A program made the translations under genes and the position numbers. 43,599 nt of DNA from Thermithiobacillus tepidarius DSM 3134 (GTDB lineage: Bacteria > Pseudomonadota > Gammaproteobacteria > Acidithiobacillales > Thermithiobacillaceae). A model generated the notes under the pieces. That model did not search any database, was not told the DNA's origin, and was given only the letters and a program-made list of their open reading frames with translations. Within the stretch, counting starts at the first letter, position 1. Each line of letters opens with the position of its first letter. The DNA lies in assembly GCF_000423825.1 (NCBI RefSeq), contig NZ_AUIS01000023.1, positions 1 through 43,599 of the forward strand. Direction: 5' to 3'. This document shows positions 1,615-30,856 of this stretch, piece by piece.

Positions 1615-2451
1615 TTAGAACCCGAAGGCCACTCCGCCCAGATAGGTGATCTGGTTGGTGCTGCTGTCCGGCTCGAAAAAGCCGGACGCGTGGACGGACG
1701 AGCGGCCGTACTTGAAGCGCTCCAGCGCAGTTTCGGCGAAGAGACTGACGCCGCCGGGCAGGCGGTAATCGACGCGGCCGCTCAGGAAATAGTTGCCGCG
1801 GTTGCCCAGCTTGAAGGGATCCTCCTCGATGCTGGCCTCCATGCGCGACTCGAAGTTGCGGCGCACCGCGCCGTCCACGCTCAGGGTCAGGCGCGGCACG
1901 GGCGAGTAGTCCGCCTTCAGGCCGGCGCCGTAGAACCAGTGGCTGTAGAGTTCCTCGTAGCCGGGCGGGTCGCCGCCGTTCAGGTTGCGCCGCCAGTAGC
2001 GCCCGCCGAGGTCCAGGTGCGGGGTCAGCATCAGGCCCTCGGCCAGCACGAAGCCCTTGCCGAGGGCCACCCGCCCGGCCAGGATCTCGGCATCGGACTG
2101 GTTGGTGACGGGAAAGCTGGCGCCGGTGAGCAGGTTGGTCACGGCGCCATTGTAGGTGGTCTGCCCGTTGGCGTAGGACAGCTCGATGTGCTCATAAAGG
2201 TTGGAGACGCCGAGGGCATCCCGCATGCTGCCGAGCTCGAACTTCACGGTGGGCAGATTGCCGTTTTCCGTGTCCAGATAGCCGGGCTGGCCCGCCAGGG
2301 TCTCGCCGTAGCCCAGGTGGGTGACGCCGGCGCCGATGCCGAAATAGTTGTTGGCGCGGATCACCGTGCCGGTGTCCGCACGGGCGGTGCCGGCCAGCAG
2401 CACGGCCGCCGCCAGGATCGCCGCTCCGCCCCTCGGCCTGAAGTCCCGCAT
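1615..2451 (-). CDS. Outer-membrane beta-barrel protein, hypothetical (278 aa)
   Basis: A 278-residue exported protein with an N-terminal signal peptide (MRDFRPRGG, hydrophobic core, cleavage likely after TARA). Alternating strands rich in Tyr, Gly and Asn follow, ending GGVAFGF with the terminal Phe expected of BAM substrates. The strand density suggests a 10-14-strand barrel. I do not recognise a named family; it resembles uncharacterised outer-membrane proteins of environmental proteobacteria. The ATG at 2451 is supported by GGAGG about ten bases upstream. It shares direction with the barrel gene at 711-1277, but a 337-base gap separates them, so separate transcription is likely. Ligand and function unknown. 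Confidence 0.6.
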   Translation of the reverse strand: MRDFRPRGGAAILAAAVLLAGTARADTGTVIRANNYFGIGAGVTHLGYGETLAGQPGYLDTENGNLPTVKFELGSMRDALGVSNLYEHIELSYANGQTTYNGAVTNLLTGASFPVTNQSDAEILAGRVALGKGFVLAEGLMLTPHLDLGGRYWRRNLNGGDPPGYEELYSHWFYGAGLKADYSPVPRLTLSVDGAVRRNFESRMEASIEEDPFKLGNRGNYFLSGRVDYRLPGGVSLFAETALERFKYGRSSVHASGFFEPDSSTNQITYLGGVAFGF

Positions 2452-2520
2452 GCTCGTCCTCCCGTATTGTCATGAAGCCCACAACTTAGCACGAGCGGCA
2501 CATCAGTCAAAACACAGGAG

Positions 2521-3195
2521 TCAGATACGCTGTCCGAGCTGATAGATGCTGCGGCAATGCCGGTCCACGCAGCGGGAGCGGCGCAGGCGGCGCGGCTGGA
2601 TGTAGATGGTGGCCATGCCCAGGCGCTTGGCGGTGGCCAGATTGGCCAGGGTGTCCTCGACCATGACGCAGGCGCGCGCGGGCACGCCGATGCGGCGCAG
2701 GATGCGGCGGTAGGCGAGCGGGTCGGGCTTGGGCCGCAGGCCCGTGGCCACCACGTCGAAAACGTCCTCGAAAAGATCTTCCACCCCCAGGCGGGCCAGC
2801 ACCCGCTCGGCGTGGGCGCGCAGGCTGTTGGTGAAGACGAACTTGCGCCCCGGCAGGGCCAGCAGCAGACGGCGCAGGTGCACGTCCGGCCGCACTTCCA
2901 GCACCAGATCTTCGGGATGGATGCTGTGCAGGTAATGCAGCGGATCCACTTCGTGCAGGGCCATCAGGCCGTGCAGGGTGGTGCCGTAGCGGCGCCAGTA
3001 GTGGCGTCGCAGGCGATCCGCCTCGGCCTCCTCCAGCGCCAGGTGGCGCATGAGATAGGCGTTGATGTGCCGGTTCATGCGCGGAAAGACGTGCAGGTTG
3101 GCGTTGAAGAGGGTGTTGTCCAGATCGAATAGGTAAACGGGCCCGCGCCGCTGGCCGCGGGAGCGCAAGCCGCGGCCAGCCGGCCGGGGCCGCAT
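2521..3195 (-). CDS. Pyrimidine 5'-nucleotidase (HAD superfamily, Sdt1-like)
   Basis: A 224-residue cytosolic HAD-superfamily hydrolase that would dephosphorylate pyrimidine nucleoside monophosphates. Motif I is FDLDNTLFN (about residues 23-31, nucleophile Asp24, acid Asp26). Motif II is the VFTNS segment, motif III the Lys in RPKPDP, and motif IV VEDTLANL. The helical cap between motifs I and II has the Sdt1/PhnX-like length. In many betaproteobacteria this family sits beside argB, as here. The Arg-rich first 20 residues and the weak ribosome site leave the start uncertain; a GTG start just before YLFDLDNTL is possible. It follows the 3210-3488 gene by 14 bases, probably in one operon with argB. 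Confidence 0.85.
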   Translation of the reverse strand: MRPRPAGRGLRSRGQRRGPVYLFDLDNTLFNANLHVFPRMNRHINAYLMRHLALEEAEADRLRRHYWRRYGTTLHGLMALHEVDPLHYLHSIHPEDLVLEVRPDVHLRRLLLALPGRKFVFTNSLRAHAERVLARLGVEDLFEDVFDVVATGLRPKPDPLAYRRILRRIGVPARACVMVEDTLANLATAKRLGMATIYIQPRRLRRSRCVDRHCRSIYQLGQRI

Positions 3196-5833: not shown

Positions 5834-6178
5834 ATGTCCCGCCATACGCTGACCCTGCTTGCCGCCGTCCTGGGGGCGCTGCTGCTCGGCGGCGCCGCCC
5901 TGGCCGTCGAACACCGCACCGTCGTAAGCATCGACCTGCCCAAGGACTACAGCCACTACCGATCCGGTCCCCATGAGGACCTGGCCCGGACCTATTGCCT
6001 CATGTGCCATGCCGCCGACTACGTCTACACGCAACCACCCCTCACGCGCACCCAGTGGGAGGCGGAAGTGACCAAAATGAAAAAAGCCTATGGCTGCCCC
6101 ATCCCCGATGGGCAGATCCAGGCGCTGGCGGACTACTTGGTCAGCCAGAATGGCAAGGTGGAATCGGGTGGGCAGTAG
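5834..6178 (+). CDS. sorB: SorB-like monohaem cytochrome c subunit of sulfite dehydrogenase
   Basis: A 114-residue periplasmic protein with a signal peptide (residues 1-24, ending AALA) and a single class-I haem attachment site CLMCH (about residues 55-59). A later KMKKAYG segment supplies the likely axial Met, and ADYLVSQNG is the usual final helix of small cytochromes c. It begins 12 bases after the sorA stop with GGGGAGG as ribosome site, so the two are co-transcribed. In characterised SorAB the cytochrome takes electrons from the Mo subunit and passes them to a further cytochrome c; the same role is inferred here. Confidence 0.85.
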   Translation: MSRHTLTLLAAVLGALLLGGAALAVEHRTVVSIDLPKDYSHYRSGPHEDLARTYCLMCHAADYVYTQPPLTRTQWEAEVTKMKKAYGCPIPDGQIQALADYLVSQNGKVESGGQ

Positions 6179-6213
6179 GTCGCTAGTGTGGGGGGTTCGG
6201 GGCAAGGCACAGC

Positions 6214-6238
6214 TTGGGCTGGATTGGGTTCAGCCCAA
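6214..6238 (+). terminator. Weak hairpin after sorB, possible terminator
   Basis: An 8-bp stem TTGGGCTG/CAGCCCAA (6214-6221 with 6231-6238) around a 9-base loop, 36 bases after the sorB stop. Only GGGTTT follows, so it is a poor intrinsic terminator; Rho or the following REP pairs may do the job. Confidence 0.35.
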
Positions 6239-6273
6239 CGGGTTTGAGGTGGAGCGCACCGCAGCCGCCGGCT

Positions 6274-6340
6274 GTAGGAGCGGGCTGGCCGCGATCGGCT
6301 GCATCAGCCTCCACCGAATCGCGGGCAAGCCCGCTCCTAC
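6274..6340. repeat. Inverted pair of REP-like repeats (BIME-like), copy 1
   Basis: Within the 422-base gap between the convergent sorB and hslU genes. The plus copy is at 6274-6295 (GTAGGAGCGGGCTGGCCGCG) and the minus copy at 6318-6340 (reverse of GTAGGAGCGGGCTTGCCCGC plus GAT). Each copy is an imperfect palindrome, and the two face each other across 22 bases, so RNA from either strand could fold into one long hairpin. The position between converging genes suits a transcription barrier or gyrase/IHF-type BIME role, but that is inferred from other REP families. Confidence 0.75.
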
Positions 6341-6473
6341 AGCCTAAGCTGCCGGCCCGCCAGGATTGGGCACGGCATCGCAGCCGCCCGGAATACCCCC
6401 TCCCACCGGGCAGGCGGAGGCCCCCCGGCATGATCCCCGGCAGCGAGCTTGGGCCGTGCGGTCGCCCAAGGCT

Positions 6474-6541
6474 GTAGGAGCGGGCTGGCTCGCGATCCAC
6501 TACGCCGGCCGCCCTGGGATCGCGGGCCAGCCCGCGCCTGC
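6474..6541. repeat. Inverted pair of REP-like repeats (BIME-like), copy 2
   Basis: A second inverted pair in the same sorB-hslU gap. The plus copy is at 6474-6496 (GTAGGAGCGGGCTGGCTCGC plus GAT) and the minus copy at 6519-6541, with 22 bases between them, the same spacing as in the first pair. The identical arm spacing suggests the pair, not the single repeat, is the unit that spreads. The rest of the gap (6341-6473, 6542-6600) shows no gene. Confidence 0.75.
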
Positions 6542-6600
6542 AAAACCTGGCACGCCGCTGGCCGGCATGCCGGGCTTGCGAGGCCGGCCAGCCTCAGCCC

Positions 6601-7926
6601 TCAAAGAATATACCGCGACAAATCCAGATCCTGCACCAGATCGCCCAGGTGTGCCTGCACGTACGGGGCGTCGATCGCCACCCGGCCGCCGCTCTTGTCC
6701 GGCGCGTCGAAGGAGATCTCCTCCAGCAGCCGTTCCATGACCGTGTGCAGCCGCCGGGCGCCGATGTTCTCCACCCGCTCGTTCACCTGCTGGGCGATCT
6801 CGGCGATGCGGCGCACGCCGTCCTCGGTGAATTCGATGTCCACGCCCTCGGTGGCCAGCAGGGCCTGGTACTGGCGGGTCAGCGCCGTTTCCGGCTCGGT
6901 CAGGATGCGCACCAGATCCTCCACGTCCAGGGACTTGAGCTCCACGCGGATGGGCAGGCGGCCCTGCAGCTCGGGAATGAGGTCCGATGGCTTGGACAGA
7001 TGGAAGGCGCCGCTGGCGATGAACAGGATGTGATCGGTCTTCACCGCGCCGTACTTGGTGCTGACCGTGCTGCCCTCCACCAGCGGCAGGAGATCGCGCT
7101 GCACGCCCTCGCGCGACACGTCCGGCCCCCGGCCTTCGCCGCTGCGGCTCGCCACCTTGTCGATCTCGTCGATGAAGACGATGCCGCTCGACTGCACCCG
7201 CTCCACGGCGCGCGCCTTGATCTCCTCATCGTTGACGAGCTTGCCCGCCTCCTCCTCGGTGAGCAGGCGCAGGGCCTCACGGACGGTGACGGTGCGGCTC
7301 TTGGTGCGGCGCGGGCCGCCCAGGTTGGAGAACATCTCCTGGAGCTGGCTGGTCATCTCCTCCATGCCGGGCGGGGCCATGATCTCCACCCCCACCTTGG
7401 GCGCCTGCAGCTCGACTTCGATCTCCTTGTCGTTCAGCTGGCCTTCGCGCAGCATCTTGCGGAATTTCTGGCGGGTGCCGTCGTCGGCGCGCGGCGTGAA
7501 GGCATCGCGCGGACCGGGCAGCAGGATGTCCAGCACCCGCTCCTCGGCCAGCTCCTCGGCACGCTGCCGCACCCGGCCGGTCTCCTCGGCGCGGGTCATG
7601 TTGATGGCCAGCTCCACCAGATCGCGGATGATGGATTCCACGTCCCGGCCCACGTAGCCCACCTCCGTGAACTTGGTCGCCTCCACCTTGATGAAGGGCG
7701 CGCGGGCCAGGCTGGCCAGACGGCGGGCGATCTCGGTCTTGCCCACGCCGGTGGGACCGATCATGAGGATATTCTTGGGCGTGATCTCCTCACGCAGGCC
7801 GGCCGCCACCTGGCTGCGGCGCCAGCGGTTGCGCAGGGCGATGGCCACGGCGCGCTTGGCCTCCGCCTGGCCGACGATGTACTTGTCCAGCTCCTGGACG
7901 ATTTCACGGGGGGTCATTTCGGACAT
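6601..7926 (-). CDS. hslU: HslU, ATPase subunit of the HslVU protease
   Basis: A 441-residue AAA+ unfoldase that feeds substrates to the HslV peptidase in the cytoplasm. Walker A is GPTGVGKT (residues 57-64), Walker B is in [10 protein letters not shown], and the GYVGRD pore-loop motif is present. The protein ends in LSRYIL, the conserved C-terminal tail that inserts into HslV. An inserted I-domain occupies roughly residues 110-240. Length is standard. It lies 60 bases downstream of hslV in the conserved order hslV-hslU. Such operons are usually heat-shock controlled, but I could not identify a convincing sigma-32 promoter. Confidence 0.96.
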
Positions 7927-8695: not shown

Positions 8696-9655
8696 TCAGT
8701 GGCTCGTCCCCGGCAGCGACTGGAGGAAATCCAGCAACGGCGGCAGATACACTTCCGGATGGGAGGCGAAGAACAGGTGCTCGCCACCGGCGATGGGCAG
8801 CAGCCGAGCGCCGGGCACCCGGGCGGCCACGTGCTCGGCATGGTCGAAGGGCACCACCGTGTCGGCGGTGCCGTGCAGCACCAGGGTGGGTACGGCGACG
8901 GACTCCAGCGGCAGCTCGGGCAGCCTGGCGATCTGCGCCACGTCGTTGCGGATGCCGGCCTTGCGCGACTCCATCATGCGCCCGCAGCGGATGAAGCTCA
9001 GGATGCTTTCGAATTTGTCCGGATCGCGGATCAATTCGGTCCGCAGCTTGGGATCGTTGGCGCTCAGCATGGGCGGCAGCAGCGCCGGCCAGCGCGCCAC
9101 CAGATAGGGCACGGCGTTCATGAGCGGTTCGCAAAAGGCCAGCTGGCAGGCCGGCGTCTCCAGGCGCGGCAGGAAGTCGGCGCGCCGGCTGACCGCCGCC
9201 ATCATCACCAGGCCGCGGCAGCGCGCCGGGTGGCGCAGGGCGAACTGCAGCGCCGTCGGGCCGCCGGCGGAGATGCCGGCCACCGCCGCCGTCCGGATCT
9301 GCAGCGCGTCGAGCAGGGCCGCCAGGGCGTCGGCCTGCCGGGCCGGGGTGTCGCCCACGCTCAGCGGCGTGCGCAGGTAGCCGGGCCGCGAAGGGGCGAT
9401 GAGGCGCAGGCCGTGGCCGTCCATCAGCCTGGCCGCCACCATGCCCTGATCGTAGCCGCCGCTGGCGCCATGGATCACCAATACCGCCGGCCCCTCCCCC
9501 ACCGTCGCGTATTCCACCGGGCCGAGCGCGGTCTGCGCCATCTGGCTGGCGGCCTGCAGACGGGCCGCCTCGCGGCGTTTCCAGGCTTGGTACTTGGCAC
9601 TGGAGCCGATGACGTCCGCGGCGGCCGTCACCGCCCCGAGCAGCAGGAAACGCAT
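8696..9655 (-). CDS. Alpha/beta-hydrolase family protein
   Basis: A 319-residue alpha/beta-hydrolase fold protein. The oxyanion/HG motif is VLVIHGASGG (about residue 64), and the nucleophile elbow GISAGG carries the catalytic Ser. The acid is probably the Asp in HGTADTVVP and the base the His in GGEHLFF, giving a complete triad. The N terminus (MRFLLLGAVTAAADVIG) is hydrophobic and may be a signal peptide or membrane anchor. The start at 9655 is chosen for AAAGGAGT upstream. The substrate cannot be read from sequence; esterase, lipase or haloperoxidase-like activity are all possible. It lies between hslV (160 bases) and xerC (48 bases), same strand. Confidence 0.8.
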   Translation of the reverse strand: MRFLLLGAVTAAADVIGSSAKYQAWKRREAARLQAASQMAQTALGPVEYATVGEGPAVLVIHGASGGYDQGMVAARLMDGHGLRLIAPSRPGYLRTPLSVGDTPARQADALAALLDALQIRTAAVAGISAGGPTALQFALRHPARCRGLVMMAAVSRRADFLPRLETPACQLAFCEPLMNAVPYLVARWPALLPPMLSANDPKLRTELIRDPDKFESILSFIRCGRMMESRKAGIRNDVAQIARLPELPLESVAVPTLVLHGTADTVVPFDHAEHVAARVPGARLLPIAGGEHLFFASHPEVYLPPLLDFLQSLPGTSH

Positions 9656-24558: not shown

Positions 24559-25437
24559 ATGCGGCACCGCTACCTGATCGTCGGCTGCGGCTACGTGGGC
24601 ACGCGCCTGGCCCGGCACCTGCCGGCCGGCACGGTGCTGGCCTTGGCGCGCGACGCGGCGCGGGCCCGGCAACTGGCCGCCCTTGGCCTCGTGCCGGTGC
24701 GGGGGGATCTGGACGCGCCGGCCAGCCTGCGCCGACTGCCGCCGGTGGAGACGGTCTTCCATCTCGCGCCGCCGCCGGACGGCGGCGACAGCGACCCGCG
24801 CACCCGCCATCTGCTGGCCGGCCTGGCCCGGCCCGGCCGGCGGCCGCGGCGCCTCGTCTATGTCAGCACCACGGGCGTCTACGGCAACCGCGCCGGCGAC
24901 TGGCTGGACGAGCACACGCCGATCCAGCCGCAAACGCCCCGCGCCCGCCGCCGCGTCGACGCCGAGGCCCAACTGCGCGCCTTCGGCCGGGCCTACGATG
25001 TGGCCGTGGTCATCCTGCGGGTGCCGGGCATCTACGGCCCCGGGCGCCTGCCCCTGGAGAAACTGCGCCAGGGCCAGCCGGTGGTGGACTACGACCCGCC
25101 CCACTACGGCAACCGCATCCAGGTGGACGACCTGGTGCGCGCCCTGCTGGCCGCCGCCCGGCGCGGCCGCCCGAACCGGCTCTACATCGCCAGCGACGGC
25201 CGGCCCGCCACCCAGGCCGAGTTCCTGGACGCCCTGGCCGCCGCCGCGGGCCTGCCCCCGCCGCCGCACATCACTCCCGCCGAAGCGGCGGCCCGGCTCT
25301 CCCCGCTCACCCTGTCCTTTCTGGCGGAGTCGCGACGCCTGCAGAACCGCCGCTTGCGGGAGGAGTTGGGGGTGCAACTGCGCTATGGGGATTTCCGGCG
25401 AGGGATCGAGGCAAGCCTATCGGGCGAGATGCGTTGA
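24559..25437 (+). CDS. NAD(P)-dependent epimerase/reductase (YeeZ-like extended SDR)
   Basis: A 292-residue Rossmann-fold protein. The N-terminal nucleotide loop is IVGCGYVGTRLA; VFHLAPP follows at about residue 75, then VYVSTTGVYGN with DEHTPIQPQTPRARRR (active-site region) and ILRVPGIYGPGR. This pattern is that of YeeZ-like NAD-dependent epimerase/dehydratases of proteobacteria, whose substrate is unknown. The typical SDR Tyr-x3-Lys is not evident after VYG, so catalytic ability is uncertain. The ATG at 24559 is chosen for AAGGAGGG just upstream. It is divergent from the flavin reductase and shares the Fur-box region, which suggests co-regulation by iron. Confidence 0.8.
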   Translation: MRHRYLIVGCGYVGTRLARHLPAGTVLALARDAARARQLAALGLVPVRGDLDAPASLRRLPPVETVFHLAPPPDGGDSDPRTRHLLAGLARPGRRPRRLVYVSTTGVYGNRAGDWLDEHTPIQPQTPRARRRVDAEAQLRAFGRAYDVAVVILRVPGIYGPGRLPLEKLRQGQPVVDYDPPHYGNRIQVDDLVRALLAAARRGRPNRLYIASDGRPATQAEFLDALAAAAGLPPPPHITPAEAAARLSPLTLSFLAESRRLQNRRLREELGVQLRYGDFRRGIEASLSGEMR

Positions 25438-25559
25438 AACCCCGCCGAAGGGTCATAGCTTACCGCTGACACGTTCCCTGCAATAACGCATATCGCCAGA
25501 ATCAATCGCGTCCTCGCCAGAGCACCAGCGCAGATGGGGACGTCGGCTGGAACCTATAG

Positions 25560-26255
25560 TTAGGTGATTGTCAACCTAAACCTCTTGCAAAGACTCTCGA
25601 TAGCATTGAGTGCACCCTTTGCATAATCAAACTTAGCACTGGACAGTGAGCTGAGTACCTCATCACGCTTCTCCGAAAGCATCCTCTTTGCGAAGTCCGG
25701 AATGAAATCGTTGTTCATTGCATCATCGACCATTTTGGCAAAATCTGCGAGATTGGGCGAAGGAGTGTCCGCCCCTTTTCTTTCCAGCACTTTCTTGGCG
25801 GTTTGAAGAACTTCGCTCGCAATATTTTGGCTCAATGTAGCCACATCTTCGGGAGGAGGACTGACCTCCTTAAGCACACCTTTGCTATCAATGCGCCGTA
25901 GTGGGCCAACGATATAGCTGTGCAGACCTTTACCAGCATTGATCATTAACGAACCATCGTGAGTTGTAGCATTTCGGCAATAGTAAACAAACTTTCCATA
26001 CGTTGGAGATAGCTCTTCCCAAGAAATGCTTTTTCCCATTATTATCTGGCAAGTATCTTTAACAGCTTGGATCGAATTTAGATACGCGCTAAAGAAATAA
26101 TTGAGTTCAGCGAGTTCCGAGTTGAGCGGGTAATCTTTAGTTAGATGCTTAATTCTGATAATTTCCGAAACACGAAGGATGTGACCGAGGAAGAAACCAC
26201 ATTCTTCGAGCTTATCTTTGAGGTTGCTTCCCACATCTATTCGGTGCGTGCGCAT
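25560..26255 (-). CDS. AT-rich hypothetical protein with HEPN-like RN-x3-H motif
   Basis: A 231-residue, almost entirely helical protein. The gene is far more AT-rich (low 40s percent G+C by eye) than its neighbours and uses codons such as ATA, AAA and TTA that they avoid, so it was probably acquired by transfer. Residues 90-100 read VYYCRNATTHD: Arg94-Asn95 and His99 match the R-x4-H signature of HEPN ribonuclease-type domains, preceded by the long helices expected in that fold (residues 44-75). HEPN proteins act in toxin-antitoxin and anti-phage defence, but no partner gene is visible here. The fold is inferred from one motif; function otherwise unknown. Start: ATG 26255, with AGAGAGACAC upstream (weak site). 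Confidence 0.6.
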   Translation of the reverse strand: MRTHRIDVGSNLKDKLEECGFFLGHILRVSEIIRIKHLTKDYPLNSELAELNYFFSAYLNSIQAVKDTCQIIMGKSISWEELSPTYGKFVYYCRNATTHDGSLMINAGKGLHSYIVGPLRRIDSKGVLKEVSPPPEDVATLSQNIASEVLQTAKKVLERKGADTPSPNLADFAKMVDDAMNNDFIPDFAKRMLSEKRDEVLSSLSSAKFDYAKGALNAIESLCKRFRLTIT

Positions 26256-26405
26256 TAGTGTCTCTCTTCAGTGCATAACAGTTTTGTCTGAGCTTTGGAG
26301 GACTTGGGCGAGCCGCTGCCCCCAGGGTGCAACAGGACTTCAAAGGGTAGACTTTAGGATGTCAGAGCTGAGGGTCGCTAGGCGCCGGCACTGCGGCCCA
26401 CCTTC

Positions 26406-27050
26406 TTAAACACGGCCCAGCACCGTTTCATCCCACCGATTCACAATGGCGCAGAAGAGCCTCGCTGTCATCTCGGCGTCGTAGATGGCCGCGTGGGCCT
26501 CGCTGTTGTCCCAGGGCAGGCCGGCGGCCTTCGCGGCCTTGGCCAGCACGGTTTCACCGAAGGCGAGGCCGGCCAGGCTCACGGTGTCGAAGGTGCTGAA
26601 GGGATGGAAAGGATTGCGCTTGACGGCGCTGCGGGCGACGGCGGCGTTGAGCACGGCCAGATCGAAGGCGGCGTTGTGCCCCACCAGGATGGCGCGCTTG
26701 CAGCCGGCAGCCCGCACTTCGGCGCGGATGGCCCGAAACAGGGCGTTCAGGGCCTCGGCTTCGCTGATCGCGCCCCGCAGGGGGTGGTGGGGGTCGATGC
26801 CGGTGAAGGCCAGGGAGGCGGGGTCGAGCTCGGCGCCAGCGAAGGGCTCCACGTGGAAGGCATGGGTGCCGAGCGGCTGCAGGTGCCCCGCCGCGTCCAT
26901 GCCGATGATGACGGCGGCGATCTCCAGCAAAGCGTGGCGCTGCGGGTCGAAGCCGCCGGTCTCCACGTCCACCGCCACCGGCAGGAAGCCGCGAAAGCGG
27001 TCCTTGATGGCCAGGCGCGGACGCTCGAGGGTATGCAAGTCTTCGCTCAT
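26406..27050 (-). CDS. rnt: Ribonuclease T
   Basis: A 214-residue 3'-5' exoribonuclease of the DEDDh family, which trims tRNA and other stable-RNA 3' ends. Catalytic residues: Asp28 and Glu30 in [10 protein letters not shown], the Asp of [12 protein letters not shown], and His plus Asp in [22 protein letters not shown] and [14 protein letters not shown] match RNase T rather than the DNA polymerase epsilon-like exonucleases. Length equals that of the E. coli enzyme (215) when started at ATG 27050; an ATG at 27062 is also in frame but would add four residues without a better ribosome site. It is followed upstream, 33 bases away, by fetB in the same direction. Confidence 0.93.
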
Positions 27051-28628: not shown

Positions 28629-28714
28629 CCGCACGCATCTCGATCCCAGCCTCATGAAACGGGCTCATGCAGAGCGCCAGAGATAATCATTCGCCTTCAC
28701 TTTCCCGCCGTGCT

Positions 28715-28885
28715 ACATTCCCATCCCGCAGGTGTACGGGAAGCAGGTCGAAAGCCTGCGCTGCCCCCGCAACGGTAGACGAGTCCAGCATTCCCACGAG
28801 GCCACTGTCCACGCGACGGGAAGGCGGGAATGCCGGCGCGCTGCGCGCCACTCGTGAGCCCGGAGACCGGCCTGCGCAAGCATGA
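28715..28885 (+). ncRNA. Cobalamin (adenosylcobalamin) riboswitch
   Basis: The leader of the BtuB-like receptor gene has the ordered elements of a B12 riboswitch: GGGAAGCAGGTCGAAAGCCTGC (28738-28759, given as GGGAAGCAGG then GAAAGCCTGC), the B12 box GCGCTGCCCCCGCAAC (28758-28773) with GGTAGACGAGT after it, GCCACTG (28801-28807), CGGGAAGGCGGGAA (28817-28830), and GAGCCCGGAGACCGGCCTGC (28856-28875). Boundaries are approximate. The expected action is to shut off the downstream gene when cobalamin is plentiful, probably by masking its ribosome site, because no U-tract terminator was seen. Confidence 0.92.
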
Positions 28886-28972
28886 ACCCGGTACCGCGGT
28901 GGGCGATATCCGGGAGGTAGCCGTTTGCCTCCTGTTCCACTGGCGGCCATCACTGTCATCTCCGGAGACGCG

Positions 28973-30856
28973 ATGCGCCATACCCAACACCTCAAAGCCG
29001 CCACGCTGGCCCTGGCCGGCACCCTGGCACACCCCGCCCTGCTGCTGGCGGACAGCACCCTGCCCGAAGTGGTGGTCAGCGCCACCCGCAGCCCCACCCC
29101 CGTCGACCAGGTCACCCAGTCGGTGACGGTCATCACGCGCGCGGAACTGGAGCAGCGCGGCATCACCCAGCTGGATCAGGCCCTGCGCCAGGTGAACGGA
29201 CTCAGTCTGACCGCGAGCGGCCCCTTCGGCGGCGCCACCAGCGCCAGACTGCGCGGCCTGGACGGGCGCAACGTGCTGGTATTGCTGGACGGCGTGCCCC
29301 TGAACGATCCGTCCGGCGTGGACAAGTCCTTTGACTTTGCCGCCTTTGACCTGGCCGGCATCGACCGCATCGAGGTCCTGGAGGGCCCCGCCAGCACCCT
29401 CTATGGTTCCGAGGCCATGGGCGGCGTCATCAATCTCATCAGCCAGCCCGCCCGGCCCGGCCTGCGCGGCAACGTGGCGGCCGACTACGGCAGCTTCGAC
29501 ACCCGCGGCGCCCGCGCCCAGGTCGGCGGCGGCACCGACCGCATCACTTTCAGCCTGGAAGGCGCGCACCGGGACAGCGACGGCGTCAACAAGCTCAACC
29601 GCTTCCCCGCCAGCCTGGACCCGCGCGAGCCCGACCACGGCTACCGCAACAACACCCTGGCGGGGCGCGCCGACATCCACCTGCCCGGCGACCTTCGTTT
29701 TGGCCTGCGCGGGCGCACCGAGGCCAGTTGGTTCGAATACGACCTGAACGGTACCAGCAATCCCGGCATTACTGGGCGCACCATTCAGGATCGCCACAGC
29801 CTGGGCGCCAATCTGTCCCGGCCCTTGGGAGCGGACTGGCTGGGCAGTCTGGAGGCCGGCTGGGTGCAACTGCGGCGCGAAACTCCCGACGACGCCTTCG
29901 GCCGCTTCTTCTCCGGCAACCAATACCGCTACAGCGCCAAGGCGGAGGGCAGCACCGGCCCGGCCCGGCTCACCCTGGGACTCGACCACGACCGCGAGCA
30001 GGCGCGCAATCTCAGCGCGAGTGGCAGCACCAGCCTGTCCGGCACCAGCACCCTGACGGCCCCTTACGTCTTCGCCCTGTGGGATTTCCGCCCGCTGCGG
30101 CTCAGCACCGGTCTGCGCTACAACGAGCACAGCAGCTTCGGCAGCAAGCTGACCTATCAGCTCGGCGCCCGCTATGACCTGCCCACCGGCACCACCTTCA
30201 AGGCCAACCTGGGCACCGGCTTCAAGGCGCCGACCCTGTTCCAGCTCTTCGCGCCCACCTACGGCAACCCCAACCTGCAAGCGGAGAAGTCCACCGGCTA
30301 CGACCTCGGCGTGGAGCAGGCGCTCTGGGCGCGCCGGCTCACCGTGGCGCTGACCTATTTCCGCCAGCGCCTGCGCAATGCTGTCACTTTCACCTTTCCC
30401 GCCGGGTACCAGAACATCAACCAGCGCCGCACCCGCGGGCTGGAGGCGAGCCTGAACTGGCGCCTCGGGGAGACAGCGGTCCTTGCTGCCGGCTATACCC
30501 ACACCAACGGCTTCGACGTGGACGCCGCCGGGCGCGAAAGCGATTTCCTGCTGCGCGTGCCCGAGGACCAGTACTTCCTGCGGGCCAACTACAGCCCGCT
30601 GCGCGCCCTGCGCCTGGACGCGGAGCTCAACTACATCGGCAGCCGCCACGATCTCTTCTTCGGCCCCGGCTTCACCACCACCAGCGTGGACACCGGCAAC
30701 TACGCCCTCGTCAACCTCGCCGCCCGCTACACCCTGTCCCGCGGCCTGGAAACCTATGTCCGCGTCGACAACCTGCTGGACCGGGGTTATCAGGAAGTGG
30801 CGGGCTTCACGGGGCTGCCGCGCTTCGTGCAGGCAGGGGTGAAGGCGGGGTTTTGA
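28973..30856 (+). CDS. btuB: TonB-dependent vitamin B12 receptor (BtuB-like)
   Basis: A 627-residue outer-membrane receptor for cobalamin uptake. A signal peptide (residues 1-27) is followed by the TonB box PEVVVSATR, and a plug domain (to about residue 160) with VNGLSLTASG, RGLDGRNVLVLLDG and GPASTLYGSEAMGGVINLI. A 22-strand barrel ends in VKAGF with the terminal Phe. Length is close to BtuB (about 600). The ATG at 28973 is supported by CGGAGACG. The cobalamin riboswitch in its leader is the main reason to assign B12 rather than another siderophore-type ligand. No btuFCD or cobalamin synthesis genes are in the window. Confidence 0.9.
   Translation: MRHTQHLKAATLALAGTLAHPALLLADSTLPEVVVSATRSPTPVDQVTQSVTVITRAELEQRGITQLDQALRQVNGLSLTASGPFGGATSARLRGLDGRNVLVLLDGVPLNDPSGVDKSFDFAAFDLAGIDRIEVLEGPASTLYGSEAMGGVINLISQPARPGLRGNVAADYGSFDTRGARAQVGGGTDRITFSLEGAHRDSDGVNKLNRFPASLDPREPDHGYRNNTLAGRADIHLPGDLRFGLRGRTEASWFEYDLNGTSNPGITGRTIQDRHSLGANLSRPLGADWLGSLEAGWVQLRRETPDDAFGRFFSGNQYRYSAKAEGSTGPARLTLGLDHDREQARNLSASGSTSLSGTSTLTAPYVFALWDFRPLRLSTGLRYNEHSSFGSKLTYQLGARYDLPTGTTFKANLGTGFKAPTLFQLFAPTYGNPNLQAEKSTGYDLGVEQALWARRLTVALTYFRQRLRNAVTFTFPAGYQNINQRRTRGLEASLNWRLGETAVLAAGYTHTNGFDVDAAGRESDFLLRVPEDQYFLRANYSPLRALRLDAELNYIGSRHDLFFGPGFTTTSVDTGNYALVNLAARYTLSRGLETYVRVDNLLDRGYQEVAGFTGLPRFVQAGVKAGF

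Follow-up and report, generated by a model that had tools for sequence, protein, structure and literature searches.

A probable one-gene phage-defence nuclease of HEPN type in Thermithiobacillus tepidarius, with relatives on plasmids and prophages

Abstract

An AT-rich gene in Thermithiobacillus tepidarius DSM 3134 probably encodes an undescribed one-gene phage-defence nuclease, a reading suggested by the mobile and anti-phage setting of its relatives together with an invariant HEPN motif. In our best explanation, to which we give a probability of roughly 0.6, the product is a stand-alone, metal-independent HEPN-type endoribonuclease that acts as a one-gene anti-phage (abortive-infection) module and belongs to an unnamed family. 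That the members of this family are HEPN-type RNases we consider probable and, this being granted, a role in defence would be slightly more probable again.

Results

An AT-rich, single-gene insertion separates two convergent genes

The window, that is, the whole 43,599-nucleotide stretch of DNA analysed here, carries the gene between rnt and an SDR (NAD-dependent epimerase-like) gene, which are in convergent orientation.

25438 to 26405, no strand: AT-rich insertion of 968 bp, between the SDR gene (end at 25437) and rnt (stop at 26406)
25560 to 26255, minus strand: HEPN-type gene of 231 aa, the sole sizeable open reading frame (ORF) of the insertion

The ORF, of 231 codons, was confirmed to be real. 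Its GC content is 44.4%, lower than in any other 696-bp stretch, while outside the gene the window has 67.8%; its GC3 is 0.46 while that of the flanking genes is 0.88-0.93, in full agreement with the original prediction that the gene is far more AT-rich than its surroundings. The 968-bp stretch as a whole has a GC content of 0.48, as against 0.68. An empty-site comparison was performed with one genome of the same family (G001), in which the gene order is the same and the convergent rnt and epimerase genes adjoin directly, with an overlap of 10 bp. The base composition of the stretch at 25438-26405 favours an insertion over a loss in G001, which is the less simple alternative.

The neighbours of the gene in the window encode the epimerase-like protein, RNase T (an NCBIfam match above the cut-off) and a FetB-like permease; as had been noted, no MNT, CRISPR or restriction gene adjoins it, and no defence, phage or integrase gene was found near it in the window. 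Elsewhere, a cobalamin riboswitch (28713-28889, plus strand; Rfam RF00174, 86 bits) is directly followed by an ORF (28925-30856, plus strand) that we take to encode an outer-membrane receptor of the TonB-dependent type; this layout is an ordinary one for B12 uptake. The HEPN-type protein had no Pfam match (E≤1), no NCBIfam family and no significant PHROG, and PADLOC returned a single weak partial match. Among the 96 genomes searched as relatives, the gene was present in none but the source genome itself. We regard the window gene as an isolated chromosomal copy, which may still work in defence or may be a relic.

The gene belongs to a family carried by plasmids, prophages and chromosomes

The gene had been described as an orphan, a status that it loses here: full-length relatives with 23-28% identity to the window protein are carried by two plasmids or plasmid-like contigs and eight prophages of Acinetobacter, by two further phage or prophage contigs and by one other chromosome. 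A tblastn search matched, at 26% identity over 92% (E 3e-15), a 243-aa protein encoded by a mobilizable plasmid of Acinetobacter pittii, 11 kb in size. Using the two-sequence alignment as the next query gave seven IMG/VR contigs and an Acinetobacter contig with what we take, from reading by eye, to be plasmid-type replication genes. Whole-genome searches added G187, a chromosome of the same class as the window genome, and G869, an Acinetobacter genome. Two phage or prophage copies of higher GC content (L046/L063 and L052) came from scanning with a DNA pattern for RNAxTHDG. Tblastn against phages revealed no relatives. Single-sequence back-translated scans of genome contigs and viral contigs also revealed none, whereas the alignment-based scans and the motif DNA pattern did find them.

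The family gene is sparsely distributed. Searches of 369 genomes of the class and 398 of the phylum turned it up in 2 and 1 (the source genome itself), respectively; the figures are 1 of 27 for the order of G187 (G187 itself), 2 of 175 for the genus Acinetobacter and 1 of 390 for the order to which Acinetobacter belongs. In every context measured it is AT-richer than its surroundings. The dN/dS values among the Acinetobacter copies range from 0.06 to 0.38, those at saturated synonymous distance being rough, and these copies are under purifying selection. Two prophage copies are broken, one by an insertion (L009) and the other by a frameshift (L010), so that the gene is dispensable in those prophages. 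The insertion (L009:8440-9520) has a 9-bp target duplication (ACTTAGCAC), inverted ends and a 310-aa transposase-like ORF; at 2072-3004, that contig has another transposase-like ORF, also of 310 aa and beginning in the same way.

Several matches were set aside. One in Neisseria gonorrhoeae, which by eye falls in a different enzyme gene, was put down to chance, as were L031 (an 81-aa ORF with only a short shared stretch) and most matches of the RNAxTHDG DNA pattern, and the PDB sequence matches were dismissed as making no sense. The N. gonorrhoeae record NZ_CP119140.1 (L062) is listed as a plasmid, and its size of 2.17 Mb suggests a mislabelled chromosome. A literature search on the family and its plasmid found no description of the family among the papers covered. 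The best reading is that of an unnamed, new family of a kind already known, the HEPN-type RNases.

Relatives lie among anti-phage and toxin-antitoxin genes with no constant partner

In the Acinetobacter prophages, the family gene lies just before the endolysin gene and is convergent to it. The assignment of these prophages to an Acinetobacter host is a probable one, based on G869 and on the 72-98% DNA similarity between matching segments. The prophage copies of the family gene share 88-98% DNA identity with that of L006, and the genes on the non-endolysin side vary. A PD-T4-5/Abi_2 homologue directly precedes the family gene in L004 (5227-6213), L005 (6035-7030, assigned by sequence identity to L004) and L020 (7019-8005). 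In L006 (6394-7224) and L009 (6857-7672) a 276/271-aa cargo protein is encoded there instead; L007 has a 196-aa protein in this position, and L008 a polymerase gene of the impB/mucB/samB type. The slot next to the endolysin gene looks like a variable site for defence genes and, since it holds the family gene with changing partners that include PD-T4-5, it may hold other defence genes. The L006 copy of the 276/271-aa protein had no Pfam or PADLOC match; the L009 copy displays GVCKLTGEYGQFIKSHLIPQAL near its start, and the gene for this protein may be one more accessory or defence gene.

On the A. pittii plasmid, the family gene is located between RelE/NadS and YafO genes, with an AbiEi-like gene slightly further away. 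In L063, it lies within 2 kb of a CI-like repressor, with a replication O-like gene in the same region. Near these genes the same contig encodes, both on the minus strand and both lacking a PHROG match, a 258-aa protein with a metallopeptidase-like HEYCH stretch (6067-6843) and a 208-aa protein that probably has a membrane segment at its N-terminus (8729-9355). In L052, the family gene opens the contig and is convergent to an ORF that, by eye, is presumably a tyrosine integrase; in G187, the chromosomal copy sits beside a gene that we read by eye as trpE-like. A neighbour common to the plasmids, prophages and chromosomes read was sought and none was found; the family gene therefore probably works alone. 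The proposal that the gene is a defence component gains support from the neighbourhoods of its relatives (the prophage cargo slot, PD-T4-5, AbiEi and toxin-antitoxin pairs); the surroundings of the window copy itself, where no defence or phage gene lies nearby, speak against it. Inspection of the homologues' neighbourhoods, which had been recommended, revealed anti-phage genes beside several relatives but no conserved partner.

The putative active-site motif is invariant

The CRNATTHD motif noted in the original prediction is present at residues 93-100, with R94, N95 and H99. Nine intact proteins, 23-28% identical to the window protein, were aligned and revealed two conserved clusters.

25953 to 25976, minus strand: predicted active-site motif R94-N-A-T-T-H99-D-G101, containing invariants of the nine-row alignment
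26055 to 26078, minus strand: helix-2 motif N60..Q63..K66-D67, all four residues invariant, within helix 45-73

R94, N95, A96, T98, H99, D100 and G101 are invariant, as are W79, F89, I105, R121, P186 and C223, and all intact copies keep both RNAxTHDG and N60..Q63..K66-D67. Conservation of R94 and H99 had been set beforehand as a test on which the HEPN assignment could fail, and both residues proved invariant. In shuffles of the window protein, R-x4-6-H occurred in 55% and R[NDH]-x3-5-H in 9.5%; such frequencies make the motif poor evidence when a single sequence is considered. As a sign of HEPN proteins, the R-x4-H motif thus carried little weight by itself and gained it from being retained at 23-28% identity: judging from the alignment, the conservation of RNAxTHDG at about 25% identity exceeds chance.

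The predicted structure is compatible with a HEPN core

HEPN RNases carry their motif at the end of helix 3 or the start of the loop to helix 4, with a polar residue (N, D or H) directly after the motif Arg; helix 2 contributes an acidic residue close to the motif, in many families within an Ex3[KR] pattern (Anantharaman et al. 2013, PMC3710099). Two AlphaFold runs on the window protein agreed with each other (mean pLDDT of 78.2 with 6 rows and 81.3 with 8 rows) and suggested the following parts.

25767 to 26255, minus strand: N-terminal HEPN-like domain, about residues 1-163, from the AlphaFold models
25863 to 25943, minus strand: beta insert, residues 105-131, from DSSP on both models, with invariant I105 and R121
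25563 to 25763, minus strand: C-terminal helical region, residues 165-231, predicted to form three helices, with invariant P186 and C223

Helices are predicted at 2-38, 45-73 and 84/87-97/100, the last with the motif at its end, followed by a loop and strands at 105-131 and a helix at 138-160. The motif is thus placed in the models at the end of helix 3 (with moderate confidence there, the 10-residue block means for the motif region being 70 and 67 in the second model), behind long helices as had been proposed, with an invariant Asn after the Arg and the R-x4-6-H spacing kept by two invariant residues. On the helix preceding the motif, D67, which lies outside any Ex3[KR] pattern, is a candidate accessory acidic residue. 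The protein had been expected to be all-helical; this is contradicted by the beta insert, in which both models predict four short strands between the motif helix and the next one. We propose that the C-terminal helical region is a sensor or oligomerisation part.

Fold and profile searches were less specific. Foldseek (PDB, BFVD) returned no match at E≤0.001, the best (E 0.055) not being HEPN, and no HEPN chain was among the matches listed; the fold is still compatible with HEPN. Structure prediction and Foldseek, the check originally advised, thus yielded a HEPN-like layout and no significant match. Among the matches listed by VIA-align was one HEPN toxin chain, 7ae9_D from a HEPN-MNT complex (Z 6.3, rmsd 4.0; 122 of 142 residues aligned to model residues 9-158), tied with unrelated helical bundles. 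By hhalign, the RNA-x-x-H stretch was in register with that of the pEK499_p136-type HEPN, over just 19-20 columns and with a probability of 4-11%. The PF18730 model matched nothing in anything scanned and is therefore uninformative. Because neither the structure searches nor the profile searches pointed to HEPN in particular, membership of the family in this superfamily is likely, not proven.

Discussion

From the motif, the models and the genomic settings, we infer for this family an RNase activity, a dimer, a trigger and a role in defence. In the mechanism that we propose, the N-terminal helical domain would dimerise, so that R94-N95-x3-H99 of both chains form the RNase site, assisted by D67 of helix 2. 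The beta insert, the C-terminal helices (P186, C223) or both would keep the RNase inactive until an infection cue, upon which RNA would be cut, leaving 2',3'-cyclic phosphate ends, and growth would stop before phage release. Temperate phages and small plasmids would carry the gene as accessory cargo, the source genome holding an isolated copy inserted between rnt and the epimerase-like gene. A more general picture, which we advance tentatively, is that of a family of self-contained abortive-infection RNases of about 230 residues, composed of a HEPN-like core, a beta insert and a C-terminal sensor, lacking an antitoxin and spreading gene by gene among temperate phages, small plasmids and chromosomes.

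The protein could instead be a toxin from a toxin-antitoxin pair, either HEPN-MNT-like or kept in check by a small RNA, that serves plasmid or prophage stability rather than mainly defence, and this would be in line with the frequent occurrence of HEPN toxins in such pairs (PMC3710099) and with the position of the A. pittii plasmid copy amid RelE/NadS and YafO modules. RelE/NadS is, however, annotated as an already complete pair, the neighbours are not constant across the replicons read, and the 130-150 nt flanking the window gene, in which a structured RNA partner was sought, gave no Rfam match at gathering score and no unusually stable fold; we consider this reading quite improbable. A little less improbable is a non-nuclease helical protein that binds RNA or protein, for instance in the superinfection exclusion, regulation or counter-defence of temperate phages, and in which RNAxTHDG would be structural. 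The searches that left the HEPN fold unconfirmed, the ease with which the motif arises by chance in a single sequence and the copy close to a CI-like repressor are all consistent with it. Such a role would have to account for the invariance, in proteins otherwise about 25% identical, of all but one position in a stretch of eight, among them the H and the polar N that follows the R; and the predicted location of the motif where a helix ends, one helix after an invariant acidic residue, would suit an RNase site.

A further possibility concerns the window copy, which might no longer have any role, having been left behind passively by a mobile element since lost. It is a single-gene insertion with no adjoining integrase or phage gene, and other copies are being lost, as seen from the IS-like insertion and the frameshift in two prophages; yet the ORF is full length and all family-invariant residues are intact, and we hold this to be unlikely. 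It can be reconciled with the anti-phage RNase reading of the family as a whole.

If the anti-phage RNase reading is true, the one-gene HEPN defence proteins that temperate phages carry gain an unnamed family which, as far as our searches show, is missing in Pfam, NCBIfam, PHROGs and PADLOC. The small size of the protein suits structural and trigger-finding work, and neighbourhood-based discovery would miss genes such as this lone chromosomal copy outside any defence island.

Compared with known systems, the window protein resembles the HEPN superfamily RNases in its R-N-x3-H at the end of the third long helix and acidic residue one helix earlier, both as predicted, and in the defence-type neighbours of its relatives. 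It differs in matching no HEPN model of Pfam, NCBIfam or PADLOC and in its predicted beta insert after the motif and extra C-terminal helical region. The pEK499_p136-type HEPN (PF18736) shares with it, as read by eye, F-x-x-x-RNA-x-x-H, a short beta-like stretch and then a helix, but is shorter and has no C-terminal region; the PF18736 model matched neither the window protein (Pfam E≤1) nor four homologues (E≤10). The chain 7ae9_D, whose alignment to our model is tied with unrelated bundles, is a HEPN toxin of the HepT-MntA kind; the window gene has no adjacent MNT nucleotidyltransferase gene. The PADLOC model for DzbB of Dazbog matched one of nine members (E 0.0058, partial), which was dismissed as chance.

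PD-T4-5, a plasmid-borne distant relative of AbiF/D, was found by functional anti-phage selection (PMC9519451). Like our family, PD-T4-5/Abi_2 is a single gene on prophages and plasmids, and RN-x3-H is visible in its sequence. It is nevertheless a separate sequence family: the PADLOC PD-T4-5/AbiD models matched none of nine members, and Pfam Abi_2 was also unmatched, while the neighbouring gene does match.

Tha is a prophage HEPN defence RNase of S. aureus that is activated by phage tails and whose anti-phage action requires the catalytic His (PMC11087260). It differs from the window protein in its length (301 aa), in having its HEPN domain at the C-terminus rather than the N-terminus and in its overlapping antisense inhibitor, and hhalign detected no sequence similarity between Tha and the family (probability 0.1%). 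Tha is, like the family as we read it, a lone HEPN effector carried by prophages, and its motif is of the R-N-x4-H type; it would, by analogy, be the nearest functional precedent for the family, which likely works in the same way. The family stands out by its beta insert, which directly follows the motif, and by a C-terminal helical region in which a Pro and a Cys are invariant.
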